NCBI RefSeq assembly: GCF_026967935.1
Contig: NZ_JAPVBL010000006.1
Location: 172,051-236,050, forward strand
Source of the DNA: Modestobacter sp. VKM Ac-2982
Lineage (GTDB): Bacteria; Actinomycetota; Actinomycetes; Mycobacteriales; Geodermatophilaceae
DNA: 64,000 bases
Direction: 5' to 3'
The notes under the pieces are model-generated. The model ran no database searches. It was not told the DNA's origin and saw only the letters and a program-made list of their open reading frames with translations. Made by a program: the position numbers and the translations under genes. Numbering within the stretch: position 1 is the stretch's first letter; each line of letters begins with the position of its first letter. Below, one piece after another: positions 43,253-64,000 of the stretch.

Positions 43253-46200
43253 CAGGCGTCGTCCCCTGAAGGCAAAGTCCATGCAGGGGCGCCCTCGGGC
43301 GCACGGGCGAAGAGTCGGTCGGGCAGCGGACTGACCAGCAGGTTGATCTCCGGCTGGACCTCACGCATTGAATTGGCGATCCGGAACGGCGCGGCCACCG
43401 AGCTGCCAGCAATGGCGACGGCGTTCTCCGGGCTGATCATCAAAGGCATGTGAGCGTTGCCCTTCCCTGTGCGCTCGTAGACGAGAGTCTGTCCGTTGGC
43501 CATGGCTTCCCCCGCGCGCTTCGACCAGTGCTCGACCCGGTTGACCAGTAGGTGGTCTGCCAGCTTGGTCGCGTCCTCGTCCTGCGCCGCGGCTTCAATC
43601 CGCTGCATCAAGCGGGACACGAGCCCCTGTACGGCGGTAAGGTTCTGCTTGATGCGTCCCGCCGCCTGCTCGGGCGACAGACCGTCGGCGGTGGCGGCCT
43701 GGAGCACGCGGACGACGCTCACCAGCAGGCCGTCGATCCCTCGCTCGAGAGACGTCGGCGAGTAGGGAGTGACCGACAGCGCCTCCACTTGGGCGTAGAA
43801 GGTCTCGTGGTAGTGCCGGAACTGCTCGAAGTGCGCAAGGTCGCGGGGCCGCGCCCAGTTCCCCAGCGACACCACCAGACCGGGCCGATCATCCGAGTCT
43901 CGGCCGACCCGAGATGACGCCTGGATGTACTCGGCGGTATTCTTCGGTTGCCCGACCACCAGCATCAGACCCAGCCGCTGGACGTCGACACCGACCTGCA
44001 GCATCGAGGTGGCCAGAACCACGTCGAAAGGCACCTCCTTGCGAGGGGAGGCGGACACACCCGCATCAGCTGCCGCCATCCGCGCCCCGAACGCTGCCGA
44101 GCTGTCGTAGTCCGGGTTGAACTCACCACCGAGGCGGTCCAGGGTCCGGCCAATCTCAGCCGACGCGATGCGAGAAGTCAGTTCACCCACGTGGAGGACA
44201 CCGAACGAGGCCCCGAGCCGACTGGGGAATCCAGCCCCCCGGCGCGGTCGCTTGACCCGGTTCTGGACGTCGTCCGCGACATAGCGGGCCATGCCAGCGA
44301 GCTCACGCGTGGCGTTGAAGTAGCCGACCAAGGTCATGTAGGGGTCCGCGGCCTTCCGCGCGTCCCCCGTCAGTGCCGGGTCGTCCGCGGAACGGTCGAA
44401 GAGCAACTGGCCTGCCGACAACAGCACCTCGGCGACCCGGATCTCGGCGCTGGAGAGTCGCACGCCCTGAGCACTGACCCCGATGTAGCGCCGCCCCGGG
44501 TGTTCCTTGCTGATGGGGATCTCGTAGGAAAAGAACGTGTTGGCTACGTCGAGCACTTGCGGCGGGAAGATCTCCACCCAGCGCCCGTAGAGGGCGCGCA
44601 CTTGCGCTTGGGCGTTGCGCACCGTGGCAGTCGACGCCACGATCAGCGGCTTCACCGGCATGGCGTCGGGAGTCTGCCAGCTGCAGAGGGTCTCGATGGC
44701 CACCTCGAACAGCCCGACGGATGTACCGAGCGCCCCGGTTATCAGATGCAACTCATCCTGGATGATCAGGTCCGGTGGCCGGAGCCGGCCCACTGGCACG
44801 ACGGTGGCCGCGGGACCGCCCTTCGACGTGTGCGAGCTGCCCGTGCAATGCGGGTAGTCGACGTGCACGTAGCCGTGTCTGCCGCACCTACGGTTGACGT
44901 AGCCGAACAGGGCCGCCGCCTCACCCTCCCGGGCCAATCGCGCGAACTTGTCGACGGTGGCGATGACGAAAGCGGGGGTGAGACGATATATCTCCTCGTC
45001 GACGGTCAGGACCGGCAAACCCTCGGTGACTGCGCCGCCTTTCGCAAAAGGACAGCGAGCCAGCTCGTCTCCGCAGTACACGAACACCCGCCGCGCGACG
45101 GGGTCGGCGCGGACGTTGGCGGCCCCAATCGGCGTGCCACACCAGGGGCACCGCTGGACCTGCAGCACCGTGAGTCGGTGGCTGCCGTACTGGTTGGCCT
45201 TGACGAGCTGGTCCTCGGCCTCCTCGTACCGCTTGGGGCTGACAGCGGTACCGACCCAAAGTCCGATGCGAAAAGGCGTCGTCCCCCAGGTGCCTTCATC
45301 CTCGCACCGGGCCAGCTCAGCGGCGCAGACGAGGGCTGTCGCTCGTTGAAACTGTTGGGCGGTCAGCAGCCGAAGCGTGTAGCGCATGAGCACGGCGACC
45401 CCGTCGTTTCCGTCGAGCGGGCCGTCGCCGGAGTCGACAACACCCTGCCTGCGGCGGATGGCGAACGTGTAGGCCGCCAGGCCGAGGTACGCCTCGGTCT
45501 TGCCGCCACCGGTGGGGAAGAACAACAGCTCGACCTGCGCCTGAAGATCTTCGCTGCGCAGCCGGGCGGTGGGGTCGGTGAGCGCCCCGAGTTGCATGAG
45601 GATGAACGCGAGCTGGAACGGGCGCCAGGTCGCGGCCTTGTCGCCACGGGCCGCCACCAATGCATGAGCGTCAGCAATCGACATGTCCGCGTTCGAGGCA
45701 CGTTCCGCGGCAACCTGCGAGGCGATGCGCTGGTCGCGCATCACTCTGTTCATGAACTGGAAGCAGCGCAGGGCCTCAGGCTTGGACGTGACGTGCGCCA
45801 GCCCGGCGGTCAGCCGCTTGTGCACCTTCCGGGCCTCGCGCAGGGCATCCGCAGCGGTGTCCAGGAGGTGGGCCGGCAGTTCGGTAGCCAGCTCCTCCTG
45901 CTCATCGAGCCAGGCTCCGTAGCCAGCGACCAGCGGAGACAGCCCGGTCGCCAGCCCTGTGGCGTCCGCCTCTGCCAACGCGGCCATGGACAGCATCGCC
46001 TGGTCGATCTCGCCGGCACGCGTTTGCGGAGTCTCTGACACAGGCAGCCAAGTGGTCTCGACGGAGGTGGCACGTCGCGATCCAACTTCGGCCTTCCACG
46101 TGACCGAGCAGCACCGGCCGATCGCGAACTGCAGCCGGTCGCGGTACTGCAGGTCGAGCCGCCGAACCTCGGAGTCGTGCTCTGCCCAGTACTCCTCGAG

Positions 46201-49900: not shown

Positions 49901-51119
49901 CGGTCGTACCGGTCAAGAAAGGGAACCGGGACGGATCGAACAGTGACCCGCCGTAGGGCGGCATCCGCAGGTTCTCGAATGAGGCCCCTGTGTAGAGGGC
50001 CCGGCTGGTGGCCAAGAGCCGGTGCCAGGTCAACGAGGTCGAGTCGAGCGCCTCTTCGGTCTCCGCGGCCTCACGCTTAACCAATCGGGCCAGCTCTCCG
50101 GAGATCCCGTACCCCTGCTCGAAGAGCTCGCCCGTCGGTAGCAATCCCCGCTCCTCCGCAAAGAGGAGGAAAACGATCCGCATCAGCACCGTGACCGCAC
50201 CCTCGTACGTGTCGTGAGCTCGACGGGGAAGGGGGTCGGGCAGTCCGTGCCGCTGAGATTCAGCGGCGGACTCGGCGAAGGACTGGATCAGCAGCTCAAC
50301 TGCCTGGCGCACCTGCGCGCCAAGCGCCTCGGTGATTTCCTCTGCTTCAGCCACCGAGTCCTTGAACAGAACTGGCAGTCGCTCAGCGGGGTCACCACCG
50401 ATCAGGTGGCGACGGGAGACCAGCGAGAAGAACGCATCCCGCACCCGGGGCTCGGCGACCCAGTCCAGCGCGTCGACCACCCCCGACGCGACCATGGCGC
50501 CCTCCCGGGCGCACACCAGGCCCCACCAGCGACCATCGGTCACCAGGCCGACCTCGGGTCCGCCGGCCCGCAGCAGAGCCTCCAACCTGTCGACCGGTGA
50601 GGCAGCCCACCGGTCGCCCGGGGCTTGGCGCAGCGAATCAATCGGGTCGACGAAGTGGACGAGGCAGCCCCACCCGTCGCCGTCCCTGATAGCCGCCTGC
50701 GCGGTCACCGTGACCTCCCGGCCGGGTGACGACGCCACCAAGCCGGGAATCTCGTCCCAGCTCATGGACTCGGCCCAACCCGCGACGTCCCGGAGCACGA
50801 CCTGCACCCAGGCGTCCCGGGCGTCCCGGTAGTTGGCGAGCGCGTGTTCCGTTGACGGGTCCCGGTCGTAGCTCTCCCACCCGGCGACGAAGGTACGGTG
50901 CGCCGACGCCAGGGCGGCCTTTGCCTCGACGGCGAGAGCTGGCATTCCTTGAGGCCACACGCGCTTGAGGGGCGGGACCGCCAGAAACGGGCCCTCAGTG
51001 TCCACGAGGGTCAGCCACGAGCGATGCAGCTCGGCAGCGCTCATCGGGCGCATCCAGGCATGCGTGACCTGGCGACCGCTCTGACCAGCTGCGCGGGCAG
51101 TGCGGGCAGTGCGGGCCAT
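46989..51119 (-). CDS. drmMI: DISARM adenine-specific DNA methyltransferase DrmMI
   Basis: This 1,376-residue protein is of the large Eco57I/BREX-PglX-like type. It has the AdoMet motif DIACGSGAFLVAAARYL at about 635 and the N6-adenine catalytic motif NPPFLGG at about 898. The N-terminal 600 residues are an alpha-helical and beta regulatory part. The C-terminal 470 residues include the target-recognition region, which is markedly less G+C-rich than the rest (61 of 120 bases are G or C in 47461-47580). It methylates the host's own sites so that DISARM spares them. Start ATG 51119 overlaps drmD by one base. Presence of an adenine enzyme marks class 1 DISARM. Confidence 0.9.
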   Translation of the reverse strand: MARTARTARAAGQSGRQVTHAWMRPMSAAELHRSWLTLVDTEGPFLAVPPLKRVWPQGMPALAVEAKAALASAHRTFVAGWESYDRDPSTEHALANYRDARDAWVQVVLRDVAGWAESMSWDEIPGLVASSPGREVTVTAQAAIRDGDGWGCLVHFVDPIDSLRQAPGDRWAASPVDRLEALLRAGGPEVGLVTDGRWWGLVCAREGAMVASGVVDALDWVAEPRVRDAFFSLVSRRHLIGGDPAERLPVLFKDSVAEAEEITEALGAQVRQAVELLIQSFAESAAESQRHGLPDPLPRRAHDTYEGAVTVLMRIVFLLFAEERGLLPTGELFEQGYGISGELARLVKREAAETEEALDSTSLTWHRLLATSRALYTGASFENLRMPPYGGSLFDPSRFPFLTGTTDQETLALTVPDRVMLHVLRSVQLPRLKSGEARQISFRELDVEQIGYIYEGLLGYTAERVDEPHLGLIGKAGSEPEIPMAVLEDLAAEHAEPRKLAEAIRQWLKDDQPAAVPASATAIAKGIGAEADSGAVSALRQAVGDDTALHDRVLPWLGLARLDLRKQPFVVLDGGLLVKETPSRRNAGAHYTPKSLATEVVKHALEPLCFNPGPHQTADESQWKPKTSEQILALKVADIACGSGAFLVAAARYLSERVVEAWVRQNPDHEARTDLEGRAIREVVASCLYGADINEMAVEMCKLSLWLVSLDRHQPFSFVDDKIFLGNSLLGLTDVQQLRTLHIDPSRAKKLETYGVDDVEVKEVVRRASELRTQLATEIDDRDPARDGAAKRRQLADLRRLTADLRRLADGVIAAGLPWGGKPGGKLDDAYENLRIAARAAAPRNGEPGNPAMLDTLIDKGLTPTVATDYRRWQPLHWVLEAPDVMVDHGGFDAIVGNPPFLGGKKVTGAVGSDVRDWMVFQLAGGVRGNADLVAYFFLRARNLLANTGKLGLIATNTIAQGDTREVGLDQAVASGFAISRAVRSRRWPATGVNLEYAAIWGSLTPLLSEAALNLDGVSVPSISTYLEPAGRSFGYPVRLAENRNAAFIGVYPLGMGFVVSPEEAENWLSASPKNSDVLLPFLNGDDLYSRPDVSASRWIVDFNDWSKERAQEYELPFGRIEERVRPERQRQDAHGQFVLRAPLPTRWWQFADKRPALRKAILQLGQVLAVTIVSKSLMPVRISARQILSNSLCVFPTDSYAQQAILSSSVHQAWVIKYGSGMRTDPRYTPSDVFETFPRAGDTLGLATAGHNLEEVRREIMLRRQLGLTALYNLVNDPAIADAVEPDVARMRDIHMRLDRAVMGAYGWGDVPLDHGFHTYRQMTRWTVSPAARVEILDRLLEENHRRAAAEQAAGVTGKGSKPRIPSEEQESLFP

Positions 51120-54100
51120 CAGGCGAACACCCCTCGGGCGTCGGCCGGCGTCAGAGCGAAGACCACTGCAGCCGCCGTGGTGTGCGGCTTGACCTCGGCG
51201 TACCGATCGCGGATCGCCAGGATCTCCCGGTCTTCCTCGTCGCCGAGCTCCGCGAGACGCCGCCGCATCCCGTCGATGTCGCGGCGACGTTGGCGCTCCT
51301 GTTCATCCGGAAGCAGCGACAGCTGCTGATCATTCTCGACCTGCTCCAGTGCACTAAGGCTCTCGGTCAGGTTGGTGCGGAACGCGGCGAAGATGTCCTG
51401 CGCTCGCTGGACGTCGGCCGCTTCACGCTTCATCAGCTGCTCGACGACGAGCGTGTGTCGGCGCGCCGCCCGTTGACTCATCGACTGCTCCAAGCGGGCC
51501 CGGAGCGCTCCATCGTCGGCGTCCCACAGCCCCGTCAGCTGTACCCGGAGGTCACGCTCGGCGGCGATGAAGGCACCTCCGTCCAGAGCCGTGTCCAGTG
51601 CAGTCTCGGCGATGTCCTCGGCCATGACCCGCCGTCCACGCAGCCGGACCCCGGCGAGGAACACCTCTTCGTGCAGCCGCAGACCGCCCCGGCCGACCAG
51701 CACCATGCGCGTCACCGCGGCGACGAAGGACTCGGGGAGCCCATCGACGACCACAGCGGTCACCCGGTTCAGCGGGGAGTCGGCGCTCCACAGCGAGCGA
51801 CGCAACGACCTCTGTGCCTTCTGCACGATGGGGTGCCCGAGGTGCACATAAACCAGGTCGTCGCGTCCCGCGGTCGCCTCCGGGTCGAATGTGATCGGGC
51901 GGAGGATGCCGGGCTTTCGACGGGTGTCGAGGCCTCGCAGCGCAGGCCGCCATCCCGCCGTCAGCGCGGGCACATCGAACACCTCGGCGTCGAGGTCCTC
52001 GACGAAGTCGTCATTGGGGATCAGCGGCAGCTGGTGGTTGATCTGGAGGGCGGTGTCAACGACTCTGCGCAGGTTGGCGGGAGACAGGTGCATCGCCGTT
52101 CGAGAGGCGCTGTAGCCCTGCTCCAGCTCGGTGAGCCTGTAGTTCATGGTCAGACTTCCGGCCAGGGCCTGGGCGATGACCTGGTTTCCGTCGAGGCCCT
52201 TCTTCTTGCTCTTCGTGGCCCGCCCCCCAGCAAAGTGCCTCGCCAGCTCGCCGGCCACGACCTGGTTGGCGGACCCGAGGTCGTACTCGACCTGGGCGAT
52301 CTTGCGACCGATCATCGACAGAAACTGAGCATCGGCGCCGTAGGTCGAGGAGGTCGAGTCCGGGACCAGGTGGAACACCTCGGGGCGCTCGGTCTGGCCG
52401 TACCGGTCGATCCGGCCGATCCGCTGCTCTAGGCGTGAGGGGTTGAACGGAATGTCAAAGTTCACCAACCGATGGCAGAACTTCTGCAAGTCGATGCCCT
52501 CGCCGGCCGCGTCGGTGGCCAGCAAGACCCGGACCGCTTCCGTGGCCGGATCGGCGTTGAACTGCTCGCGGAGGACTTCGCGCTCTTCGGTCGGCGTCGA
52601 CCCTTGTATGACGGCCAGCACGTCTGCGTACCCGCGCTGCGTGAGCACCCTGGTCAGCCAGTCGACGGTATCCGCGTACTCGGTGAAGACCACGACGCGC
52701 TCGTTCGACCAGGAGCCGGCGGGACGACAGACGGCGTCAAGTAGCTCAACGAGCCGCTCCAGCCGCGAATCAGGCTTGCTCTCATGGCTGCGCCCCCACT
52801 GCGCGAGCTCCTCCAATTGCCCCGGCTCGGCGCCGCTGAGTGGGTCGGAGCTCTTCGAGTCTCGGAGTCGGGTCGCTTCGTCCTGCTCCCAGAGCCCTTC
52901 CTCGTCGTCGGCCCGCCCCTCCCCGAAGACGTCGTCGTAGTCGTCGTCGGCCAAGCCAGCCCCGGCGCGCGCGGCAACGTAGTGGGACAACGTCGTCCCG
53001 AAGGCGTAAGGGCTCGACAGGAATCGCTTCTTCAACAGCATCGTGACGATGTCGCCGCCCGGCCTGGTGCCGTTGAGCTCCGCACTCCGCCGGACGATCC
53101 GATCAAGCACCTCGAACTTGCTTTGCTCCTCGGCGCTCGGGGAGTAGGAGAGCGCTGTGACTGAGCGCTTTTGAAAGCCCTTGTCGGTCAGGTCCGTTTT
53201 CAGTCGTCGGACGGTGACATCGCGCAGCGCCGCGGCGTCGAGACGAGCGCCTCGCGAGAACCGGCGGGGATCAATCATCTCCATCAGGGCGGTGAACGAC
53301 TCGGGGTGACCGTTGTGTGGGGTGGCGCTGAGGAAGAGCCGGTGCTCGCACTTCTCGGCCAGTTCACGCACAGCGACGGTGCGGTGGGTGTCAACCGCGT
53401 AGCCACGGCCCCCAGCCACCGCCGACGGGCTGGCAGGGGCAACGTGATGGGCCTCATCGACCACGATGATGTCGAAGGCGAAGCGCTTGGCGGACTTCGG
53501 GTTGGCCGTGCGCGAGTAGACATCGCGCAGCAGACGCTGTGCCCGCGACTGGGGCAACCACGCCATACTCACGATGACCCGTGGGAAGAGCGTGAAGGGG
53601 TTTGCGTGCAGCCCGTGGGAGCGGCGGATCTCCGCCATGAGCTCGCTGTCGACGATGGTGAAGTCCAGACCGAACTTCTCCCGCATCTCGTCCTGCCACT
53701 TCAACGACAGGCTCGGCGGACAGACGATCACGACGGTGCGAGCTCGGTGACGGAGCAGCAGCTCCTGAATTACTAGGCCGGCTTCGATCGTCTTACCCAG
53801 CCCCACGTCGTCTGCAAGAAGGAGGTTGGTGCGCGGCGCACTAAGCGCGCGACGCAGCGGCTCAAGCTGGTAGGCCTCGACGTTCACACCCGACCAGAAC
53901 GGGGCCTGGTAGCGGTTGGGGTCGGCTGACGTGACAGCCCCCCACCGCATGGCATCGATGAAGCCGGCGAGCACCGTGGGGTCGTCGAACGCGTCTGGCC
54001 GGATTCGCTCGGGCAGCCCCTGGTCCGGGGTGACCGTATGACCGACCTCGAGCTCCCAGACCACCGACAGCTGCTCACCCAGCCGGTCCTCGTCGAGGGA

Positions 54101-54319
54101 CTGCAACTCGACGACGTGCGTCAGGTGCGCCAACGTCTCGTCGGCTGGGCTCCGGGGCAGGCCTTGCGTCCGGACGTTCGCCACCGCCCACGTCGACCCT
54201 CGAACCTCGACGACCTGGCCTGGCGTCGGCAACGGGGGCAAATAGTTCGCCCCCTCAAGGCCCTCGACGGAACCTGTGGCGTTTTCCTCGACCGCGAGTC
54301 CCCGAGTCACCTCTCGCAC
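51119..54319 (-). CDS. drmD: DISARM SNF2-like helicase DrmD
   Basis: The 1,066-residue protein has an SNF2/HepA-type motor: LLADDVGLGKTIEAG at about 168, VVDEAHH at about 285, SATPHNGHP, VVVFTEYADTVDW at about 545, and ATDAAGEGIDLQ with LEQRIGRIDRYGQ at about 610-650. The C-terminal 350 residues are helical with a coiled-coil-like charged tail. DrmD occurs only in class 1 DISARM. I use the GTG at 54319; a second GTG three codons on is possible. It is the first gene of the operon. The 150 bp upstream must hold its promoter but no clear boxes are seen. Confidence 0.9.
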   Translation of the reverse strand: MREVTRGLAVEENATGSVEGLEGANYLPPLPTPGQVVEVRGSTWAVANVRTQGLPRSPADETLAHLTHVVELQSLDEDRLGEQLSVVWELEVGHTVTPDQGLPERIRPDAFDDPTVLAGFIDAMRWGAVTSADPNRYQAPFWSGVNVEAYQLEPLRRALSAPRTNLLLADDVGLGKTIEAGLVIQELLLRHRARTVVIVCPPSLSLKWQDEMREKFGLDFTIVDSELMAEIRRSHGLHANPFTLFPRVIVSMAWLPQSRAQRLLRDVYSRTANPKSAKRFAFDIIVVDEAHHVAPASPSAVAGGRGYAVDTHRTVAVRELAEKCEHRLFLSATPHNGHPESFTALMEMIDPRRFSRGARLDAAALRDVTVRRLKTDLTDKGFQKRSVTALSYSPSAEEQSKFEVLDRIVRRSAELNGTRPGGDIVTMLLKKRFLSSPYAFGTTLSHYVAARAGAGLADDDYDDVFGEGRADDEEGLWEQDEATRLRDSKSSDPLSGAEPGQLEELAQWGRSHESKPDSRLERLVELLDAVCRPAGSWSNERVVVFTEYADTVDWLTRVLTQRGYADVLAVIQGSTPTEEREVLREQFNADPATEAVRVLLATDAAGEGIDLQKFCHRLVNFDIPFNPSRLEQRIGRIDRYGQTERPEVFHLVPDSTSSTYGADAQFLSMIGRKIAQVEYDLGSANQVVAGELARHFAGGRATKSKKKGLDGNQVIAQALAGSLTMNYRLTELEQGYSASRTAMHLSPANLRRVVDTALQINHQLPLIPNDDFVEDLDAEVFDVPALTAGWRPALRGLDTRRKPGILRPITFDPEATAGRDDLVYVHLGHPIVQKAQRSLRRSLWSADSPLNRVTAVVVDGLPESFVAAVTRMVLVGRGGLRLHEEVFLAGVRLRGRRVMAEDIAETALDTALDGGAFIAAERDLRVQLTGLWDADDGALRARLEQSMSQRAARRHTLVVEQLMKREAADVQRAQDIFAAFRTNLTESLSALEQVENDQQLSLLPDEQERQRRRDIDGMRRRLAELGDEEDREILAIRDRYAEVKPHTTAAAVVFALTPADARGVFA

Positions 54320-54469: not shown

Positions 54470-55213
54470 TCAGGTGAGGAGAGGCACGAGACCGTCGACG
54501 AAACGGTAGGCGGAAGGCAAGTAGTCGACTGAAACTGTGAAGCGGCTGCTGGTCACTGCGACGCCGGCGATCAGTGATCCCTCGGCGTCACGAACCGGGA
54601 CGGCGAGGCAGGCGGTTCCCTCGTGCAGCTCCCCGGCTTGCCCCGCCCAGTTGTCCGCGCGCACGCGAGTCAGGCAGGCGTCCAGCGCGTCCGGTCGCGT
54701 CACCGTCGCCCTCATCAACCGCGTTAACTTGGCCGGCGGCACAAGGTCGCGCCACTCGGGCTGCTCGGCCAGCAGCAGCTTGCCGGCCGCGGTCGCGTGC
54801 AGGTGGCGCTCCACCAGCGCCGGGTCCTGCAGCGGCAGATCGGGGTCCATGTCGGCCACCCGCAGCGTCGTCGCCGTGTACAAGATCAGGTGCACCCCGG
54901 CCCGCACCTCCTTACGGAGGTCGGCGAGAACAGCTCGGGCGGCCGACGGCACCCGCACCGGCGCGATCGCCCCGGCCAGCCCGGCCACCTTGCGACCCAA
55001 CGCGAACCCGCTCAGGTCCGGCAGCCGGACCAGGTACTGCTCCCCCACCAGCAGGTTCAGCAGTCGGTACACCGTCGCCGGCGGCATGCCCAGCGACTCG
55101 GCCACCTCCTTCGCCGTCACCCCCGCCCCCAGCCGCGCCACGCACTCCAGCACCGCCAGCGCGCTCTGCACCGCCTTCGGCTGCCGCCCGGACAGCCCGC
55201 CGTCCGCCGCCAT
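54470..55213 (-). CDS. IclR-family transcriptional regulator
   Basis: The 247-residue regulator has an N-terminal winged helix (SALAVLECVARLG ... TAKEVAESLGMPPATVYRLLNLL) and a C-terminal ligand-binding GAF-like domain ending with the conserved AVPVRDAEGSLIAGVAVT segment. IclR proteins act as dimers on catabolic genes and sense small metabolites. The ATG at 55213 overlaps the permease stop by one base (TGATG), which settles the start. It probably controls the permease gene, or did before that gene was damaged. Confidence 0.85.
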   Translation of the reverse strand: MAADGGLSGRQPKAVQSALAVLECVARLGAGVTAKEVAESLGMPPATVYRLLNLLVGEQYLVRLPDLSGFALGRKVAGLAGAIAPVRVPSAARAVLADLRKEVRAGVHLILYTATTLRVADMDPDLPLQDPALVERHLHATAAGKLLLAEQPEWRDLVPPAKLTRLMRATVTRPDALDACLTRVRADNWAGQAGELHEGTACLAVPVRDAEGSLIAGVAVTSSRFTVSVDYLPSAYRFVDGLVPLLT

Positions 55214-56529
55214 CAGGCCGCCATCGACCCGGGCAGCACGCTCGCCACCGTCGGCTCGTCGTAGACCCCGACCCGCGCCAGCCGCGACGGCCGGCGCAGC
55301 GCCAGCCACGCAGCCCACGCCGCCCCTGGCAGCAGTACCGCCAGGTACGCCCACGACATGGCCCGGCCGCCCTGCCAGGACTCCCCGCCCAGCGCCACCA
55401 CCAGCACGAGCAGCCACAACCCCGCCGCCACCAACCCGCCGACCACCGGCCAGACCGTCAGCTCACCGATCCGGCGCAGGAACAGCGGCGCCGCCGCGCA
55501 CACCAGCACGTAGGCCAGCACGTAGCCGAACGCCGACACGGTGATCGTCCCGGTCAGCACCGAACGCCCGCCGGCACCGGCCAGCAGCGCCACGAACGGC
55601 ACCCCGACCACCAGCGGCAGGCACAGCGACAGCGCCTGCACGGGGGTGCCCCGTCGAAGGTGCACCCGCCCGAACGCCGCGGGCAGCACGCCCTCCCGGC
55701 CCATGGAGAACAGCACCCGCGCCAGCGCGTTCACCGAGCCGGTCACGCAGGCGAAGAACGACGCCGCGATGCCGACGTCCAGCAGCCGCACCAGCCAGCC
55801 GGTTTCCCCGGCCAGCGCGGACACCGGCACCGGGCTCATCAGCACCTCCAGCGGGGCCCGGCGGAGCAGCACCACCTGCGCCACCGCGCCGACCAGGAAC
55901 AGCACCCCGGCCACCGCCGGCGTCCAGAGCACCGCCCGCGGCACCGCGATCAGCGGCCGCTGCGCCTCCACGCCCAGCACCCCGGCGCTCTCGAAGCCCA
56001 TGAACGCCGTCACCCCGAGGACGACGCCGACCGCGACCCCGCCCCAGCGCACGTCCCCGTCGACCACGGGCGCCGCCGTCCCCAGCCCCTCCGGCAGCCG
56101 CAGCAGCAGTACGGCGAGCACCACCAGGACGACGGCGATCGACACCACCTCCAGGGCCAGCGCCACCCGCGCCGACAGCTGGATGCCGCGCACCGTGCAC
56201 CACCCGGCCAGCCCACCCACCAGCAGGACCAGCAGAGCGACGGACGACGAGGGCAACGAGAACAGCGCCGCCAGGTACAGCGCGCAGCCCACCAGCGCCG
56301 ACATGGACACCGCCGCGTAGCCGATCGCCAGCGACCACCCGCCCACCACGGCTCCGACCGGCCCGAGCCCGCGCGCGGTGTACGTGTAGACCCCGCCGAC
56401 GGCGGCCAGCCGCTGGGCGAACAGCGACACGCACCAGCCGACCAGGAGCACCAGCACCGTCGCCGCGACGAACGCCGGCAGCGTCGCGCGTCCCGCGCCG
56501 GCCAGCACGATCGCCGGCACCGTCACCAT
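55213..56529 (-). CDS. APC-family amino acid/amine permease, N-terminus truncated
   Basis: The 438-residue protein has about eleven membrane helices and typical APC features, such as LAAVGGVYTYTARGLGPVGA near the start and GFESAGVLGVEAQRP in the middle. It probably moves amino acids or amines across the inner membrane. The usual cytoplasmic leader and the first half-helix are missing. The frame runs upstream into a piece of a GIY-YIG gene, so ATG 56529 lies inside what is normally the first helix. It may therefore be inactive. It is coupled to the IclR gene by TGATG. Confidence 0.7.
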   Translation of the reverse strand: MVTVPAIVLAGAGRATLPAFVAATVLVLLVGWCVSLFAQRLAAVGGVYTYTARGLGPVGAVVGGWSLAIGYAAVSMSALVGCALYLAALFSLPSSSVALLVLLVGGLAGWCTVRGIQLSARVALALEVVSIAVVLVVLAVLLLRLPEGLGTAAPVVDGDVRWGGVAVGVVLGVTAFMGFESAGVLGVEAQRPLIAVPRAVLWTPAVAGVLFLVGAVAQVVLLRRAPLEVLMSPVPVSALAGETGWLVRLLDVGIAASFFACVTGSVNALARVLFSMGREGVLPAAFGRVHLRRGTPVQALSLCLPLVVGVPFVALLAGAGGRSVLTGTITVSAFGYVLAYVLVCAAAPLFLRRIGELTVWPVVGGLVAAGLWLLVLVVALGGESWQGGRAMSWAYLAVLLPGAAWAAWLALRRPSRLARVGVYDEPTVASVLPGSMAA

Positions 56530-56561
56530 CGCCGCCGACGGCGCCAGCGCCGATACCGATG

Positions 56562-56787
56562 CTCCGGGTGCTCGGCCCAGGTCAGCGCTAGCTTCTTCCG
56601 CTCCACTCCGACAGCCGCAGCTGGTCCCGGCTGACCAGCACCGGCCGCGTCGTCCACCGGCTCTGCCAGCCCTCCCGCTCGCTCTGCAGCGCCGCCAGGG
56701 ACCGGCGCAGCGTCGACGATCCCGTCGTCCCACGGATGTGGTCCCCCGCCACCCGACTCCGCAGCGTCGCCTTCGACGCCGTCCCAG
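56562..56787 (-). pseudogene. GIY-YIG gene fragment with frameshift
   Basis: This stretch is very similar at the DNA level to 59716-59940 inside the intact GIY-YIG gene (shared sequences such as GACGATCCCGTCGTCCCACG). It lacks both gene ends, has a one-base deletion and then a stop in place of the codons after LRLSEW. It is in the same orientation as the intact copy and abuts the truncated permease gene. Confidence 0.8.
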
Positions 56788-57102
56788 GGAAACGTCCCCG
56801 CCGACGTGATGAAGCGGCGAGCGGTGTGGACGACGGCGTCGTCAGATCAGCTCGACGCACCGCAGATGACGGACCGAGAGGTGGCCCCGGTCCTGTGTTG
56901 CCTGCTTTCCCATCGGCCAGCTGCCCAGCGCCATTAATTGCAGGCGTTTTCGTCCGTTCTTGACCCCGCGCATGGATTTCTTACCGGTCCCGTGAACGTG
57001 ATTCGTGCGCAACGGCACGGCAACACAGGACCCCCACGATCCACGGCAGAACGTTCCAGCGCGGACCCGATGAACGGGAGACCACCGGCATGGACACAGA
57101 TC
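56788..57102. other. 315-bp intergenic region upstream of nitrile hydratase operon
   Basis: No gene is supported here. It should hold the promoter of the DUF1097/nitrile hydratase operon. A TTGACC at 56960-56965 resembles a -35 element but no matching -10 lies at the right distance. The part near 56930-56985 is less G+C-rich than its surroundings. Confidence 0.4.
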
Positions 57103-57633
57103 ATGAGTGAGAAGAACGCGCTGACGGTGAGCATCGGGGTGCTCGGCGCCCTCTCCGTCCTGCTGACCGCCGAGGTCATCGAAGTCCCGGTCTGGGTGGT
57201 CTTCATCGCCTGGGCGTCGTTCTTCATCCTCGGTGGTGGCGTCGGCGGCCTCGTGCAGTCGATCGCCAGCAACCTGACCGGCGTCGCCATCGCCTCGCTG
57301 TGCCTGCTGGTCATCCAGCAGGCCACGCTGGGCGTTCTGCTCACCGCCATCGTCGTGGGCGTCGGCAGCGCCGGGATGGTCGCCGTCTCCCGCGTCCCGC
57401 TGCTCACCGCGATTCCCGCGATCGTCTGGGGTTTCGCCACCACGGTCGGCACGTCCGCGGTCACCGGCCGGGATGTCACCTACGCAGACAGCATCGGGAA
57501 CCCGGTCCTGATGGTGGCCACCGCCCTCGTCCTCGGCGGCCTGTTCGGCATCGCATCGGAACGGCTCGCTGCCGTCCTCACCGGCGGGAAGGACCGTGAT
57601 CTGACCACCACCACGGAAGGAGCCTCGACGTGA
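57103..57633 (+). CDS. DUF1097 family membrane protein
   Basis: The 176-residue protein has about five membrane helices and the DUF1097 features VPVWVVFIAWASFFILGGG and VGVGSAGMV. Members are presumed inner-membrane transport-related proteins. I start it at ATG 57103 (MSEKNALTVS); an in-frame ATG at 57070 is the alternative, and neither has a strong ribosome-binding site. Its stop overlaps the beta-subunit start (GTGA), so it belongs to the nitrile hydratase operon. It may carry a nitrile, amide or related small molecule; that is inferred from position only. Confidence 0.7.
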   Translation: MSEKNALTVSIGVLGALSVLLTAEVIEVPVWVVFIAWASFFILGGGVGGLVQSIASNLTGVAIASLCLLVIQQATLGVLLTAIVVGVGSAGMVAVSRVPLLTAIPAIVWGFATTVGTSAVTGRDVTYADSIGNPVLMVATALVLGGLFGIASERLAAVLTGGKDRDLTTTTEGAST

Positions 57634-58391
57634 AACTGCAGCACGCCCTCGGTGGCCTGGAAGGGCTCGAGACCACACCGGTCAACTTCGAGAAGCGTGT
57701 CTTCGTCGAGGACTGGGAGAAGCGGATCTTCGGGATCCACGCCGCGATGATGGGGCTCAGCGACTCACTGCGGGACGCCGGCTACGACATGGACGCGGCA
57801 GGCGCGGCCGTGAACACCACATGGACGTGGGCGGACCTCCGCAAGGGCGCCGAGGCGATGAACCCCTTCGACTACTTCAGGCTCCGGTACTACGAGAAGT
57901 GGCTGGGCGGCATCACCAGCTACTTCCTCCAGCACGGCTACGTCACCGAGGAAGAGCTCGCGGCCGCCACCGCCACGTACGCGGAGACCCCTACCGCCGA
58001 GCTGCCGGTACGCCCTAGCGACTCCATCGACGACCAGGTCATCCGCTACCTCCGCCAGGGCGACACTCCGCACCGTGGCCCCGGCGAACCCCGCTTCGCC
58101 GCCGGCGACGCGGTGACCGTCGGCAACCCACCGCACAGCGACCACACCCGGCTGCCCGGCTATCTCCGCGGCCGCAGCGGCGTGATCGAGCGCGTCTGGA
58201 GCGGCAGCTACGCCTACTTCTGCTCCACCGGACCCGACGGCCTCGGCGAGCAGCCCGTGCCGGTCTACGTCGTCCGCTTCGAGCCGGCGGAGGTCTGGGG
58301 CGCCGCCGCCGAACTGAACGCCGGGCCGATCTACGTCGAGCTGTACGAGACCTACCTGAACCCGCCGACCACCACCGAGGACGTCGCCTGA
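57630..58391 (+). CDS. nthB: nitrile hydratase beta subunit
   Basis: The 253-residue protein has the helical N-terminal half (DWEKRIFGIHAAM ... YYEKWLGGITSYF) and the SH3-like C-terminal half (FAAGDAVTV ... HTRLPGYLRGRSGVI) of nitrile hydratase beta subunits. With the alpha subunit it hydrates nitriles to amides in the cytoplasm. The conserved HTRLPGYxRG segment is intact. The start is GTG 57630 with GGAAGGAG upstream. It is followed without a gap by alpha, the gene order of cobalt-type enzymes. Confidence 0.9.
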   Translation: MKLQHALGGLEGLETTPVNFEKRVFVEDWEKRIFGIHAAMMGLSDSLRDAGYDMDAAGAAVNTTWTWADLRKGAEAMNPFDYFRLRYYEKWLGGITSYFLQHGYVTEEELAAATATYAETPTAELPVRPSDSIDDQVIRYLRQGDTPHRGPGEPRFAAGDAVTVGNPPHSDHTRLPGYLRGRSGVIERVWSGSYAYFCSTGPDGLGEQPVPVYVVRFEPAEVWGAAAELNAGPIYVELYETYLNPPTTTEDVA

Positions 58392-59017
58392 TGAGCACGC
58401 AGTTCGCCTTCCCGTCCGACCGCGAAGAGCAGAGCGCCGCCAAGGTGCGCGCCCTCGAGTCGCTGCTCATCGAGAAGGGGGTCATCACCCACACCACGGT
58501 CGACAAGGTGCTGGGCTACTTCGAGTCGGAGATGACCCCGCTCAACGGCCAGAAGATCGTCGCCCGCGCCTGGGTGGACCCAGACTTCGCCGCCCTGCTC
58601 GCCACCGACGCACCCGCAGCGGTCGCGCAGCTGGACCTCCCCAACGGCATGGCCGGCGCCGAGGGCGAGCACCTCGCGGCCGTGCTCAACGAGCCCGGCG
58701 TGCACAACCTGGTCATCTGCACCCTCTGCTCCTGCTTCCCGTGGCCGGTGCTCGGGCTGCCGCCGTACTGGTACAAGGACCCGGTCTTCCGCGCCCGGGC
58801 GGCCCGCGAACCGCGTGCGGTACTGACCGAGCTCGGTGTGCCGCTGGACGACGACACCGAGGTGCGCGTCTGGGACTCCAGCGGTCACTCCCGCTGGTTC
58901 GTCGTCCCGGAACGCCCCGCCGGCACCGAGGGATGGACCGAGGAACAGCTCGCCGCGCTGGTCACCACCGAGTCGATGATCGGCGTCGCCCTCGCCGACG
59001 CCCCCGCCCCGGTCTGA
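58391..59017 (+). CDS. nthA: nitrile hydratase alpha subunit, cobalt type
   Basis: The 208-residue protein holds the metal-binding claw CTLCSC (Cys110, Cys113, Ser114, Cys115) in ICTLCSCFPWPVLGLPPYWYK. Threonine at the second position is typical of non-corrin cobalt enzymes; iron enzymes have Ser. Two of the cysteines are normally oxidised to sulfinic and sulfenic forms in the mature site. The ATG overlaps the beta stop by one base. A related thiocyanate hydrolase subunit is less likely, since that enzyme has three subunits with a different gene set. Confidence 0.9.
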   Translation: MSTQFAFPSDREEQSAAKVRALESLLIEKGVITHTTVDKVLGYFESEMTPLNGQKIVARAWVDPDFAALLATDAPAAVAQLDLPNGMAGAEGEHLAAVLNEPGVHNLVICTLCSCFPWPVLGLPPYWYKDPVFRARAAREPRAVLTELGVPLDDDTEVRVWDSSGHSRWFVVPERPAGTEGWTEEQLAALVTTESMIGVALADAPAPV

Positions 59018-59031
59018 GTCGAGGAGATCCG

Positions 59032-59370
59032 ATGAGCAGCGACGTCGTCGACTTCACCTACGACGCGGACGGCAAGGCCGTCTTCCACGACTCCTGCGTC
59101 ACCGACCTGGACCAGCCGACCTTCGACGCCGAGTGGCAGCGCCGCGCCTTCGGCCTGGCGGTGGCCCTGTCGGAGTTCCGCCACTACGAGTGGACGGACT
59201 TCCAGCAGGCACTGATCGGCGAGATCGGCGCCTGGGAGAACGCGCCGGCCGACGCCCGCGGCCGCTGGGAGTACTACGAGCACTGGGTGAGCGCCCTGCA
59301 CGAGGTGGTCGCCGGGCACGGACTGCTGGAGGAGGGCTACGTCAACCCCGAAGACCGCGACGACCACTGA
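59032..59370 (+). CDS. nitrile hydratase accessory (activator) protein
   Basis: The 112-residue protein resembles the N-terminal helical part of beta subunits (FDAEWQRRAFGLAVALSE ... YYEHWVSALHEVV). It is the type that carries the alpha subunit and helps insert cobalt. The ATG at 59032 has GAGGAG 7 nt upstream and follows alpha by 14 bp. It is the last gene of the operon. The roughly 200 bp after it hold no supported gene. Confidence 0.85.
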   Translation: MSSDVVDFTYDADGKAVFHDSCVTDLDQPTFDAEWQRRAFGLAVALSEFRHYEWTDFQQALIGEIGAWENAPADARGRWEYYEHWVSALHEVVAGHGLLEEGYVNPEDRDDH

Positions 59371-59569
59371 CCGCCGGCGCCCGCGACGACCGCCGCGTGG
59401 GCGATCAGGTGGTGCACGAAGGCGCCCAGTAGCGCGCTGCCCGACTGGTTCTCGCCACGCCTCTCCACGAGACACATCGCGGCAAGCTCAGGTGAACAGC
59501 GACGTTCGCGTTCTCTCGATGGGGTCCAACCCCGGTCGAAGCCCCGTCGAGCGCACAACGGCGTCCGGG

Positions 59570-60115
59570 TCACTCTCCGGCTCTGGCCGCCTCGCGCCAG
59601 CGCGTGCGGGCATCGCGCAGGAACCCGTGCAGCGGGTGGGCGGCGTTGTCGGCCAGGTTGAGCGGTGGTTCCAGCTCGGCGATCACCTCGGCCTCGACCG
59701 TCCACGGCTCGGAGTGCTCGGCCCAGGTCAGCCGCAGCTTCTCCCCCATCCACTCCGACAGCCGCAGCTCGTCGGCGTTGACCAGCACCGGCCGGGTCGT
59801 CCACCGGCTCTGCCAGCCCTGCTGCTCGCTGAGCAACGCAGCCAGCGACCGGCGCAACGTCGACGATCCCGTCGTCCCACGGATGTGGTCTCCCACTACC
59901 CGGCTGCGCAGCGTGGCCTTCGACGCCGCCCCGTTCGGCGCGATGCCCACGTACAGCAACTGCAGGCCGGCGACCTCGTGCCGCGGCCCGGAGATCCCGG
60001 GCAGCGCACCGAACCGCCCCCACCACGCATAGACCCCCGGCGCGGCAGGCACGCCGGCGCGCGCCTCGTCCAGCGACACGGGGAGCGAGCGCAGCGCGGC
60101 GACCACGGAGTTCAT
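59570..60115 (-). CDS. GIY-YIG nuclease-fold family protein
   Basis: The 181-residue protein has GVYAWWGRFG (GIY position) and LLYVGIAP (YIG position), then a basic helical region (LRSRVVGDHIRG) and a Glu in the second half of the domain. This is a short GIY-YIG protein probably able to bind or nick DNA; no extra DNA-binding domain is fused. ATG 60115 is the chosen start; no strong ribosome-binding site is evident. A broken copy lies about 3 kb away (56562-56787) in the same orientation. Confidence 0.7.
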   Translation of the reverse strand: MNSVVAALRSLPVSLDEARAGVPAAPGVYAWWGRFGALPGISGPRHEVAGLQLLYVGIAPNGAASKATLRSRVVGDHIRGTTGSSTLRRSLAALLSEQQGWQSRWTTRPVLVNADELRLSEWMGEKLRLTWAEHSEPWTVEAEVIAELEPPLNLADNAAHPLHGFLRDARTRWREAARAGE

Positions 60116-60268
60116 GCCGACAGTCAAACGCCCGGAACATGCAGGACCCAATCCGCACGGCGGCGGCAGAGCACCGTGCGGAGAAGTTGACCGACGTCCC
60201 CGGCTTCCGTAACCGGAGCGGAGCGAGCGGGAGGTGTCGTGTGGGCACCGACTTCGAGAGGACCGCCC

Positions 60269-61489
60269 GTGCCCGACCTGTTCTCCCCCTTCACGCTCAA
60301 GGGCGTGACGCTGCGCAACCGCATCGCCATGTCGCCGATGACCATGTACGGCTCGGTCGACGGCCAGATGGACGACTATCACGTCATGTACCTCGGGGCC
60401 CGCGCCGCCGGCGGCTTCGGGCTGGTCTTCCCCGAGCAGATCGCCATCACCCCCGACGGCCGGACGACGACGTCCTGCGCCGGCATCTGGGACGACAACC
60501 AGATCGCCGGCCACGCCCGGGTCACCGCGATCATCAAGCGCTTCGGCGCCGTCCCGGGCATCCAGCTCGGCCACACCGGCCGCAAGGGCAGCGAGGTCCC
60601 GCCGCACAAGGAGACCAACGCCCAGGGCTCCTGGAAGGCCCTCCCGCCGGACCACCCGGACGGCTGGCAGACCGTCGGCCCCTCGGCCATCCCCGCCGGC
60701 GGCGACCACTCCTACCCGGTGCACCAGCTGACGGTCGAGGAGATCAAGAGCCTGCACCGCAGCTACGCCGACGCCGCCCGCCGCGCCGCCGACGCCGGCT
60801 ACGAGTGGCTGGAGATGCACTTCGCGCACGGCTACCTCGCCGCCAGCTTCTTCTCCCCGCTCGCCAACCAGCGCACCGATGAGTACGGCGGCAGCAACCG
60901 CAACCGGGCCCGCTTCCTGCTCGAGGCTCTCGACGCCGTCCGGGAGGTCTGGCCCGAGCACCTCCCGCTGACCATGCGGCTGGGCTCGGACGACTTCCAC
61001 CCCGGCGGCGTGCAGTTCGAGGACTCCATCGAGGCCATCGGCTGGATGAAGGAGCACGGCCTCGACCTCGCCGACCTCTCCATGGGCGGCAACACCGACG
61101 AGATGGTCAACCCCTCGTTCTTCAACGAACCCGCGGGCTTCGTCCCGCGCGCCACCCGGGTCCGCCGCGAGGTTGGCATCCCCGTCGCCACCAGCTGGAA
61201 CCTCGGCGTCCCGCAGACCGCCGACTCGGTGATCCGCTCCGAGCTCATCGACGTCGCGATGATCGGTCGGCCGGCCCTGTCGAACCCGCACTGGCCGGTC
61301 TGGGCCGCCCGCGAGCTCGGCGTGGAGGCCCCGTTCGACCTGCTGCCGGCGGACTGGCGGTGGTGGCTGTCGAACTTCCGCGGCCACGCCCCGAGCATCG
61401 GGTTGCCGCCCACCCCGGCCGAGGTGCGCGCGGCCGCCACGGCCGACGTCCCGATCGCCGAGTTCGGCGAGGTGCCGGTCAGCGTCTGA
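60269..61489 (+). CDS. NADH:flavin oxidoreductase, old yellow enzyme family
   Basis: The 406-residue TIM-barrel enzyme starts LFSPFTLKGVTLRNRIAMSP and has the family segments QLGHTGRKG, HFAHGYLAASFFSP..NQRTDEYGG and a C-terminal IGRPALSNPHW. These bind FMN and NAD(P)H. It should reduce activated C=C bonds or related groups using FMN. The GTG at 60269 has AGAGGA about 8 nt upstream and matches the family's usual start. It is followed by a strong 16-bp hairpin. The substrate is not evident. Confidence 0.85.
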   Translation: MPDLFSPFTLKGVTLRNRIAMSPMTMYGSVDGQMDDYHVMYLGARAAGGFGLVFPEQIAITPDGRTTTSCAGIWDDNQIAGHARVTAIIKRFGAVPGIQLGHTGRKGSEVPPHKETNAQGSWKALPPDHPDGWQTVGPSAIPAGGDHSYPVHQLTVEEIKSLHRSYADAARRAADAGYEWLEMHFAHGYLAASFFSPLANQRTDEYGGSNRNRARFLLEALDAVREVWPEHLPLTMRLGSDDFHPGGVQFEDSIEAIGWMKEHGLDLADLSMGGNTDEMVNPSFFNEPAGFVPRATRVRREVGIPVATSWNLGVPQTADSVIRSELIDVAMIGRPALSNPHWPVWAARELGVEAPFDLLPADWRWWLSNFRGHAPSIGLPPTPAEVRAAATADVPIAEFGEVPVSV

Positions 61490-61492
61490 CCC

Positions 61493-61528
61493 TGCGGGCG
61501 GCCGACGTGATAACGTCGGCCGCCCGCA
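61493..61528. terminator. strong bidirectional hairpin
   Basis: A perfect 16-bp inverted repeat (arms 61493-61508 and 61513-61528) with a GATA tetraloop begins 4 bp after the oxidoreductase stop. It lies between two convergent genes and should stop transcription from both. It is the most stable hairpin I noticed in the window. Confidence 0.8.
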
Positions 61529-61612
61529 CCGGCGGTGGGCAGCCCGGCGCACGATCGAGGCGACCGCAGCATCGGGCGACGGTGCCGACCGTCTCCTGGT
61601 CGACGTACCGAT

Positions 61613-62239
61613 CTACGTCGGGTCGTCGATCGGTCCCTCGCCGGCCAGCCAGGCGTCCTCGCGGGCGTGGAAGGCGACCAGCTCCGCCCACCGGTCGTCG
61701 CCGAGCAGGTCGAGGTTGAGCTGCACCCCGCGCTTCGTTTGCAGATACCCGAGATACCGGTACGACGGGCGCAGCCCGGCCAGCAGGGCAACGTCCAGGT
61801 CGGGCACCTCGCCGGGGACGACCGGCCGCAGCTCGTCCCACTCGAACAGCACGTGGAAGGTCAGCAGCTTCCAGGAACCAGCCGACCGCACGGCCCGGGA
61901 GAAGAACCGGCAGTAGGCGTGGACGTCGGCCTGGATGCCACCGACCTCCTCACGCAGGAAGATCTTCGCCGGGCTCTCCACAGTCGCGCGGTCGCCGTCG
62001 ACCTGGGCGAAGGCGGGGAACACCCAGTGCTTGCCGGAGAACGGCCCCGCCGGGGCGTCGCCCAGCAACGAGCGCGTCGCCTCGACGTAGGCCTGGCCGC
62101 CGACGCCGTCGTACCAGGTGGTCCGCACCCACGCACCGGGGTGGAAGCAGCCGGCCATCACGTCGAACCGCCGCTGGTCGCGCGCGAAGCGCTCGCGCCG
62201 GACCAGGTCGAACAGGTCTTGCTCGTCAGCCGACGGCAC
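61613..62239 (-). CDS. SnoaL/NTF2-like fold protein
   Basis: The 208-residue protein has the pattern of SnoaL-like bile-acid or polyketide-type cyclases and dehydratases: RERFARDQRRFDVMAGCFHPGAWV, then AYCRFFSRAVRSAGSW and KLLTFHVLFEWDEL. The N-terminal two-thirds form the cone-shaped NTF2 fold; the reaction cannot be assigned. It overlaps the IclR gene by 14 bp and is probably in the same transcript. No signal peptide is seen. Confidence 0.7.
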   Translation of the reverse strand: MPSADEQDLFDLVRRERFARDQRRFDVMAGCFHPGAWVRTTWYDGVGGQAYVEATRSLLGDAPAGPFSGKHWVFPAFAQVDGDRATVESPAKIFLREEVGGIQADVHAYCRFFSRAVRSAGSWKLLTFHVLFEWDELRPVVPGEVPDLDVALLAGLRPSYRYLGYLQTKRGVQLNLDLLGDDRWAELVAFHAREDAWLAGEGPIDDPT

Positions 62240-62978
62240 GAGGCGCGCCTCCGCCGAGCTCGGCGCTCAGCGCGTTGGTCGTGGCCAGCAACTGCTCCAG
62301 GGTCGATTCGAGGTCCAGCTCGCCCGCCCCCAGCAGCGCCACCGTCGCGGCCAGGCCCTTGTCGTCGAACACGGGGGCGGCCACCGCGACGGTGCTCCCG
62401 TTCCACACCACGCTGTAGCCCTGCCGCCGGGCCGAGTAGACGTCGGTCTCCAACCGGGCCCGCTGCGCCGGCGACATCCCGGCGGTGGCGGTCTCCATGG
62501 CCGAGGCGTCCCCGTAGGCGAACATCAGCTGCGACTGAGCGGCCGTCGGGTCCAGCTTGGTGCCCGGGTGCACCGTCATGACGACGACCCGGCTGGTGTC
62601 CTCCTCGGTCAGCGCCACCACCGGCCCGGTGGTGCCGCGGACGCTGAGGACCGCCGTCATACGGACGGCGGTCCTCAGCCGCTGCAGGTGCGGCCCGGCG
62701 ATCTCCACCACCCGCCGCCGGCCCAGCGCCTGCACCCCCAGCTCGAGCATCAGCCCACCGAGCGCGAACGTCCCCCGGCGAGACCCCCGCTCGAGGATCC
62801 CGGCCGCCGCCATCGAGGCGCAGTAGCGGTAGGCCGTCGTCCGGTTGAGCCCGGTCGCGTCGGCGATGTCCGCCGCCGTCAGCTCGACCACCTGCGGACC
62901 GAACAGTGCGCAGATCTGGGCGACCCGAGCCACCGCACGGATGTCAGCGGTCGACGTCGCGTCCTCGGAGTTCGCCAT
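62226..62978 (-). CDS. IclR-family transcriptional regulator
   Basis: The 250-residue protein has a winged helix (VARVAQICALFG ... TAADIADATGLNRTTAYRYCASM) and an IclR ligand domain. I use ATG 62978; an in-frame GTG at 62996 with GAGAAG upstream is possible. It overlaps the SnoaL-like gene, which it may control. It could also act on the oxidoreductase gene. Confidence 0.85.
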   Translation of the reverse strand: MANSEDATSTADIRAVARVAQICALFGPQVVELTAADIADATGLNRTTAYRYCASMAAAGILERGSRRGTFALGGLMLELGVQALGRRRVVEIAGPHLQRLRTAVRMTAVLSVRGTTGPVVALTEEDTSRVVVMTVHPGTKLDPTAAQSQLMFAYGDASAMETATAGMSPAQRARLETDVYSARRQGYSVVWNGSTVAVAAPVFDDKGLAATVALLGAGELDLESTLEQLLATTNALSAELGGGAPRAVG

Positions 62979-63036
62979 GCGCGAAGAGTAGTTCACCAGG
63001 GGCACTTCTCGACGTGTCCGCACTCGAGCGGGGTGC

Positions 63037-64000
63037 TCAGCCGGCCAGCCAGTTGGTCAGCTGCGCGGAGACCTCGTTGTAGTTCTCGGCGTACCAGTCG
63101 ACGTCCTGCATCACGTTCTCCCCGGTGTTCACCGGCCCGTAGACCTCGACCTTCTGCTGGCTCTCCGACAGCTCCGGCTCCGACGTCGTGTTCACCGGCG
63201 CCGTCCCCAGGTCCTCGGAGATCGCCGCCGCGGCCTCCGGGCCGGTGAGGGAGGAGACGAAGGCCTCCGCGGCCGCCGCGTTCGGGGCGCCCTTCGGCAC
63301 CGCGAAGGCGCTCAGCGTCGTCACGGTGGTGTCCCAGACGATCGTGATGTCCAGGCCCTGGTCCAGCAGCGGCACCAGTCGCGAGTCCGACAGCAGGAAC
63401 ATGTCCACCTGGCCTGAGCCGACCGCCTGCTGCAGCGCGCCGACGTTGGGGGCGAAGGTGGTGACGTCGCGGATGGTGTCCAGCTTCTCCAGCGCCCGGT
63501 CGACGTCCAGCGGGTAGAGCTCCTCGGGGGCGACCCCGTCGGCGAGCAGCGGGTACTCCAGGATGCCGTTCTGCAGGTTGGTCAGGATGCCGCGCTGACC
63601 CGGGAACTCCTCCACGTCGAAGAAGTCCTCGATCGTCTGGGGCGCCGTGCTCGGGTCCGGGTACGCCTCGGTCCGGTAGGCGAAGGGCGTGGAGTTGATG
63701 AACCCGCCGACGTAGCACTCGCCGACCGCCTGCTCGACCAGCTCGTCCTCGCTGACGCCGCTGTACTCCACCGGCTCGAAGAGCGTGTCGCAGTTCTGCT
63801 GCGCGGCCGCCGGAGCGACGGCGACGACGTCCCAGGAGACGGCGCCGGCCTCGACCTGGGCCTTGACCTGGGCGACGTCCGGCGGGGAGGTGTTGACGAA
63901 GGTGACCCCCGGGTTCTCCGCCGTGTAGGGCTCCTGCCAGTCCTTGATCATGGCGTCCTGACCGTCGCCGCCGTAGCCGACGAACGTCAGCTGGGCCTCG
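63037..64000 (-). CDS. ABC transporter substrate-binding protein, 5' end outside window
   Basis: The visible 321 codons encode a periplasmic-type binding protein of the iron/polyamine (PotD-like) fold, with AYRTEAYPDPSTAPQTIEDF and QAVGSGQVDMFLLSDSRLV typical of the family. The Met at 63951 is not the true start; the frame continues to the edge (GYGGDGQDA before it). The signal peptide is outside the window. It binds a solute such as a polyamine or amine for an ABC importer; the ligand is uncertain. It is the last gene of its unit, ending 58 bp before the IclR start. Confidence 0.8.
   Translation of the reverse strand, partial: EAQLTFVGYGGDGQDAMIKDWQEPYTAENPGVTFVNTSPPDVAQVKAQVEAGAVSWDVVAVAPAAAQQNCDTLFEPVEYSGVSEDELVEQAVGECYVGGFINSTPFAYRTEAYPDPSTAPQTIEDFFDVEEFPGQRGILTNLQNGILEYPLLADGVAPEELYPLDVDRALEKLDTIRDVTTFAPNVGALQQAVGSGQVDMFLLSDSRLVPLLDQGLDITIVWDTTVTTLSAFAVPKGAPNAAAAEAFVSSLTGPEAAAAISEDLGTAPVNTTSEPELSESQQKVEVYGPVNTGENVMQDVDWYAENYNEVSAQLTNWLAG

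Follow-up and report, generated by a model that had tools for sequence, protein, structure and literature searches.

How did a broken copy of a GIY-YIG nuclease-family gene come to lie on one side of a nitrile hydratase operon, with an intact copy of the same gene on the other? The question is raised by a 64,000-nucleotide (nt) stretch of the genome of Modestobacter sp. VKM Ac-2982 (hereafter the window; genome G000, C11:172051-236050), which sits on a 409 kb contig of a 4.78 Mb assembly in 14 contigs. The original prediction, in which a GIY-YIG fragment and an intact gene stand in the same orientation with a DUF1097/nitrile hydratase operon between them, was confirmed by self-blastn of the window. 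With respect to the cause, the explanation that we favor, at a probability of roughly 60%, is that the locus is a hotspot of gene turnover beside a DISARM DrmD gene, and that the 225-nt piece is an old, decayed GIY-YIG remnant of a past rearrangement. The scar and the turnover are well supported, and the mechanism is what we infer from them. Along the window the genes run in the order DrmD, IclR, permease, remnant, nitrile hydratase, GIY-YIG and flavin mononucleotide (FMN) oxidoreductase, with the following features.

54470..55240, minus strand: IclR-type regulator of an old amine-catabolic cluster (PF01614/PF09339 on the containing open reading frame, 54470-55417)
55213..56559, minus strand: APC-family amino acid permease without the first 26 codons predicted for it (PF13520; homology to G017 and G009 ends at 56559)
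56560: joint A, permease to GIY-YIG remnant; one base without assigned origin, microhomology not evident
56561..56785, minus strand: GIY-YIG remnant, approximately codons 60-135, frameshifted and without either gene end
56786..56805: joint B, remnant to operon block; about 20 bp whose origin is not assignable
56806..59392, plus strand: DUF1097 and nitrile hydratase operon block common to G001 (93%)
57103..57633, plus strand: DUF1097 gene (PF06496, E 4e-30)
57630..58391, plus strand: nitrile hydratase beta subunit (PF21006/PF02211; TIGR03888 above cut-off)
58391..59017, plus strand: nitrile hydratase alpha subunit with CTLCSC (PF02979; TIGR01323 above cut-off)
59032..59370, plus strand: nitrile hydratase accessory protein (TIGR03889 above cut-off)
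59393..59514: joint C, from the operon block shared with G001 to the GIY-YIG block shared with G005
59570..60115, minus strand: intact GIY-YIG nuclease-family gene (PF20815, 89 bits)
60272..61489, plus strand: FMN oxidoreductase of old-yellow-enzyme type, which together with GIY-YIG makes up the shared block (PF00724)

Comparisons were made with samples of 23 genomes from the genus, 112 from the family and 394 from the class. Among the relatives, all Modestobacter, G005 is sp. VKM Ac-2984, G001 is VKM Ac-2985, G018 is VKM Ac-2977, G013 is M. muralis, G016 is an uncultured isolate and G021 is M. caceresii; g25 denotes the genus of the Klenkia group, and K120 is a Klenkia.

The GIY-YIG pair and the age of the remnant

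The two copies form a direct repeat, 56561-56785 against 59707-59932, in which 197 of 226 columns are identical with one gap (E 1.8e-73); the fragment had first been placed at 56562-56787. This is the sole direct repeat listed at E<=1e-5 in the window, the other match being a 36-nt palindrome. Both copies are encoded on the minus strand, and the DUF1097, beta, alpha and accessory genes between them on the plus strand. The earlier description of the copies as nearly identical is too strong, as the longest identical run is 33 nt, overall identity is 87% and the frameshifted remnant is equally close to the allele of G005. Specifically, the remnant is 0.876 identical to the intact gene of its own genome and, for two sister species, 0.876 to that of G005 and 0.871 to that of G001, with values of 0.84-0.86 for five other alleles of the Modestobacter a-type (0.84-0.88 for a-type alleles overall) and 0.81-0.82 for three of the b-type. 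The intact copies of G000 and G005 are 0.92 identical to each other across these columns.

The distribution of individual substitutions bears on the same point. At five sites (56750, 56710, 56689, 56567 and 56565), the base of the intact copy is private to it and the remnant holds the other a-type state, matching all, or all but one, of the seven other a-type alleles; at only one site, 56732, is a base found solely in the G000 pair. Recent copying of the intact gene did not produce the remnant. Aligning and dating the copies, a check suggested in the original prediction, gives an old split between them, in a poorly resolved tree. That the remnant has decayed is evident from its frameshift and the loss of both gene ends, and its substitution pattern suggests the same. 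Of its 28 mismatches with the intact gene, 16 fall at codon positions 1-2. Between intact alleles, the corresponding counts are 4/18 for G005, 10/24 for G001, 7/21 for G016, 13/29 for G009 and 8/24 for G018; the comparison with the Klenkia allele K120, at 18/32, is similar to that of the remnant.

The product of the intact gene passes the PF20815 gathering score with 89 bits against 22.4. G27, Y29, G57, R70, R72, H77, E141 and N153 are invariant in the aligned GIY-YIG members (18 chosen), and we take these columns to be the putative active-site residues; two b-type members have F or H in place of Y55, the second-motif tyrosine. The protein had no PADLOC match and was dismissed as a listed defence protein, and a comparison by sequence with solved structures gave a best E-value of only 0.63. 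The gene is accessory, being present in 10 of the 23 genus genomes.

The operon, its age and the joints of the locus

The alpha, beta and accessory proteins are predicted to form a nitrile hydratase set, since all three score above curated cut-offs (TIGR01323, TIGR03888 and TIGR03889), and the alpha-subunit sequence reads CTLCSC, presumably the C-T-L-C-S-C motif of cobalt-type nitrile hydratases, a metal predicted from sequence only. At E<=1e-70, the alpha subunit is matched in two of the 112 family genomes, G000 and G001, and distant alpha-like genes (<=54% identity) occur at other locations in 13 of the 21 remaining genus genomes. Five class genomes besides G000 contain an alpha match of 75-78%, and in all five the order DUF1097-beta-alpha-accessory is kept, such that these operons differ from the one described here in sequence only. 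The gene set is an ordinary one, which we infer this lineage to have gained horizontally. In the literature collection searched, no paper mentions both DUF1097 and nitrile hydratase, one mentions both Modestobacter and nitrile hydratase, and nothing relevant to GIY-YIG genes with cassettes or partial duplication was among the matches listed.

The block 56806-59392 is common to G000 and G001 at 93% DNA identity, and its ends do not coincide with the repeats, which rules out a cassette bounded by them. A simple insertion between the copies, as originally proposed, is likewise not borne out, as G001 possesses the operon together with one GIY-YIG match, in the order operon, Fic, small open reading frame, GIY-YIG, FMN. 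Synonymous divergence (dS) between G000 and G001 is 0.12-0.13 for the alpha, DUF1097 and accessory genes. Because this matches the 0.12-0.14 of the FMN gene, the operon probably dates back to the divergence of these species, and their common ancestor probably had it already. Along the operon, identity to G001 is mosaic: 57836-58510 (much of beta and the start of alpha) is at 85-94%, and most of DUF1097, the accessory gene and the remainder of alpha is at 94-99%.

The locus contains three joints, and the remnant and the operon were joined separately, so more than one event is probable. At joint A, a predicted GTG start opens the permease of G017 and G009, whose first 26 codons are absent from the window, and the joint falls at the remnant, removing exactly these 26 predicted codons. 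Little or no homology is seen here, with one unassigned base and no microhomology evident by eye, and the outer end of the remnant meets the permease gene abruptly, without the GIY-YIG 3′ flank. At joint C, the only matches to 59393-59514 in the 28 loci compared, two of which come from G000, were the stretch itself and 32 nt in G013. Immediately beyond, 59515-61533 is 94% identical in G005, in the same order and with the operon absent there, which marks this as the homologous side; the part of this GIY-YIG/FMN block that is shared with G001 is 59595-61529.

The architecture differs among related loci. In G017, which has no GIY-YIG match, the IclR-permease pair is followed by a second permease, copper amine oxidase, a small open reading frame and PemK, and then by SnoaL, IclR and solute-binding genes as at 61613-63951 of the window; from the 5′ end of the permease on, the window instead has the remnant, the nitrile hydratase operon, GIY-YIG and FMN oxidoreductase. 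The order in G005 is IclR, truncated permease, second permease, amine oxidase, small open reading frame, GIY-YIG, FMN, and in G021 the permease is truncated at yet another point. IclR adjoins the permease in G005, G009, G017 and G021 as well. The expectation that relatives would show a single GIY-YIG gene beside an intact permease had no clean answer: G005 has the single gene and a truncated permease, G009 has it on the other side of an intact permease, and G017 lacks GIY-YIG but has the permease intact. Repeated decay at the locus is also suggested by genes for PemK, a HerA-like protein and copper amine oxidase that are split or incomplete (G017 L098 3622-5623, G021 L020 5953-7861, G009 L019 9705-9842).

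Recurrent second copies and competing explanations

A second direct GIY-YIG copy lies within 6.5 kb of the first in four of the 10 Modestobacter carriers: the 226 columns described above in G000, a full b-type gene in G013, an 80-nt 3′ piece beyond the Fic gene in G016 and a 78-nt piece beside PemK in G021. Across the same 10 loci, each centred on GIY-YIG, 43 further genes count as intact-like, defined as matching any of 17 query proteins at 60% coverage and 50% identity, and only one of them, an MFS gene in G018, has a second copy (4/10 versus 1/43, Fisher p 0.003, a test chosen post hoc). The polarity remnant, other gene, intact GIY-YIG is alike in G000 (nitrile hydratase), G016 (Fic) and G021 (PemK). 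In G013, the two full genes (L017 9399-9965 and 14583-15149) are of types a and b and flank FMN; G010 and G020 have b-type GIY-YIG only. The original prediction had named both copies in operon-less relatives as evidence against it, and these occur in kind in three of the eight operon-less carriers (G013, G016 and G021), each with a different piece, and the same fragment and joint in none. The nine carriers in g25 have one GIY-YIG match each. A third piece in G021 (L020 15033-15073, 41 nt, E 1e-6) contains no GIY-YIG reading in six frames and was put down to chance and left uncounted. A tRNA-Gly gene lies about 0.8 kb from the G016 remnant (L018 11200-11294). Since the G001 locus directly repeats other sequence, remnants are not unique to GIY-YIG; these repeats (L016 7252-7566 and 12125-12523; 83%, 70%) lie about 4.9 kb apart around Fic-GIY-YIG-FMN.

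Among G000, G005 and G001, the dS of GIY-YIG is 0.29-0.34, as against 0.12-0.14 for FMN, a 2.1-2.8-fold excess, and that of the MFS gene is 0.13 (the IclR/permease row, being out of frame with pN > pS, was excluded). Recombination at this locus is likely, because GIY-YIG dS is raised and second direct copies occur in four of 10 carriers. The part of the original prediction that invoked recombination at GIY-YIG thus stands as to likely involvement, but the copies neither bound the cassette nor date its arrival. Mechanistically, incoming DNA would pair by homology with the resident GIY-YIG/flavin-oxidoreductase (FMN) block on one side, and its other end would be joined illegitimately, as in homology-facilitated illegitimate recombination; older copies would be truncated and stranded beyond the newly arrived genes in a stepwise displacement. 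The G000 genome contains two Ku genes, so end joining is available. Taken together, the shared polarity, the abrupt joint, the raised GIY-YIG dS and the two Ku genes fit stepwise displacement.

Several observations weigh against this explanation. Three adjacent remnant bases, 56627-56629, are those of G001 rather than those of the intact copy, and the remnant may accordingly be of mixed origin. The tree of the 225-nt region has good support at two of 18 inner branches, and the approximately unbiased (AU) test did not reject the remnant and the intact copy as sisters (p 0.415). Raised dS is not special to GIY-YIG, as nitrile hydratase beta reaches 0.28; G001, whose genome yields a single GIY-YIG match, carries the operon but no remnant; and no donor was found in which the operon adjoins a matching GIY-YIG. 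G000 also has a ComEC-type gene, but its family is also matched in 10 of 14 control genomes and is not evidence of competence. Finally, a deletion inside an old tandem pair leaves much the same scar.

This last scenario, in which a deletion ran from the permease into the left gene of an ancient tandem GIY-YIG pair to leave the remnant, and the operon arrived separately, is the alternative we take most seriously, while considering it unlikely. The long-past divergence of remnant and intact copy is consistent with it, as is G013, where two full direct copies of the old types a and b lie about 5 kb apart on either side of FMN. The second G013 gene is b-type, however, and on FMN's other side, whereas the remnant is nearer the a-type, and no carrier of the 10 has two full a-type copies. 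Appreciably less probable is a single crossover that brought in a molecule bearing both the operon and a GIY-YIG segment, followed by trimming of one flanking copy. Direct GIY-YIG repeats do surround the operon as this requires, but G001 has the operon without flanking copies, alpha, DUF1097 and the accessory gene have the same dS as FMN, which makes the operon no younger than the species, and the remnant meets the permease directly with no GIY-YIG 3′ flank.

A recent tandem duplication of GIY-YIG, the other origin originally offered, with the operon entering between the two copies, would account for the base shared at 56732 and the 33-nt identical run, and sister placement is not rejected by the AU test. 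It is scarcely credible, given 87% identity, equal to that with the allele of another species, and five sites with a private base in the intact copy and the ancestral one in the remnant as against one shared by the G000 copies alone; the rejection comes from these two lines and not from the tree. We regard it as very doubtful, too, that the nuclease itself drives the turnover in Modestobacter by cutting unlike, divergent resident alleles, with repair from incoming DNA swapping the allele, importing its neighbours as captured cassettes and leaving truncated leftovers. The conserved putative catalytic residues, the raised GIY-YIG dS and the second copies (4/10 versus 1/43) are in keeping with such a role, but it has no known cleavage site and no PADLOC match, and the single match in each g25 carrier argues against an enzyme property, although pieces as short as that of G021 could escape the protein search.

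Setting and significance

The locus may be bordered by a defence region, as the window contains the DISARM DrmD helicase (51119-54319; NF038317, 1216 bits) and an MrfA zinc-binding-domain protein (41198-43282). The palindrome noted above (61493-61528, 94% self-complementary) directly follows the FMN gene and is probably a terminator; it was rejected as an attachment site, its 16-nt core matching exactly once in the genome. No transposase or integrase was found among the 8 + 5 window open reading frames scanned, short ones falling outside the scan, and no tRNA in loci L024 and L025, and a composite transposon or integrase island was set aside on these grounds.

Stepwise displacement has a parallel. 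For the type VI effector-immunity modules of Vibrio cholerae, sequential displacement has been proposed, in which a module enters through homology at one end and is joined illegitimately at its opposite end, older genes staying in a row as orphans (PMC5361080). As compared with those arrays, the leftover here is a broken GIY-YIG piece without evident benefit, the gained genes are metabolic and the mechanism is read from scars. Horizontal-transfer hotspots without mobile elements are reported to show more recombination at their flanking genes (PMC5635113). The present locus resembles these in its high turnover, in the lack of a transposase or integrase in the scanned open reading frames and in the raised divergence of its anchor gene; unlike their core-gene flanks, GIY-YIG is itself accessory.

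As it stands, this is an ordinary rearrangement reflecting mostly ordinary genome dynamics, of modest interest for its recurrent GIY-YIG copies. Its scar nonetheless allows a stepwise replacement of genes to be read, and the open reading frames scanned include no recognised mobile element. If the recurrence holds in more genomes, the locus would offer a test case for an accessory nuclease that makes its neighbourhood a capture site, and if the nuclease-driven mechanism, very doubtful at present, were true, a self-displacing nuclease would be the engine of a gene-capture site.

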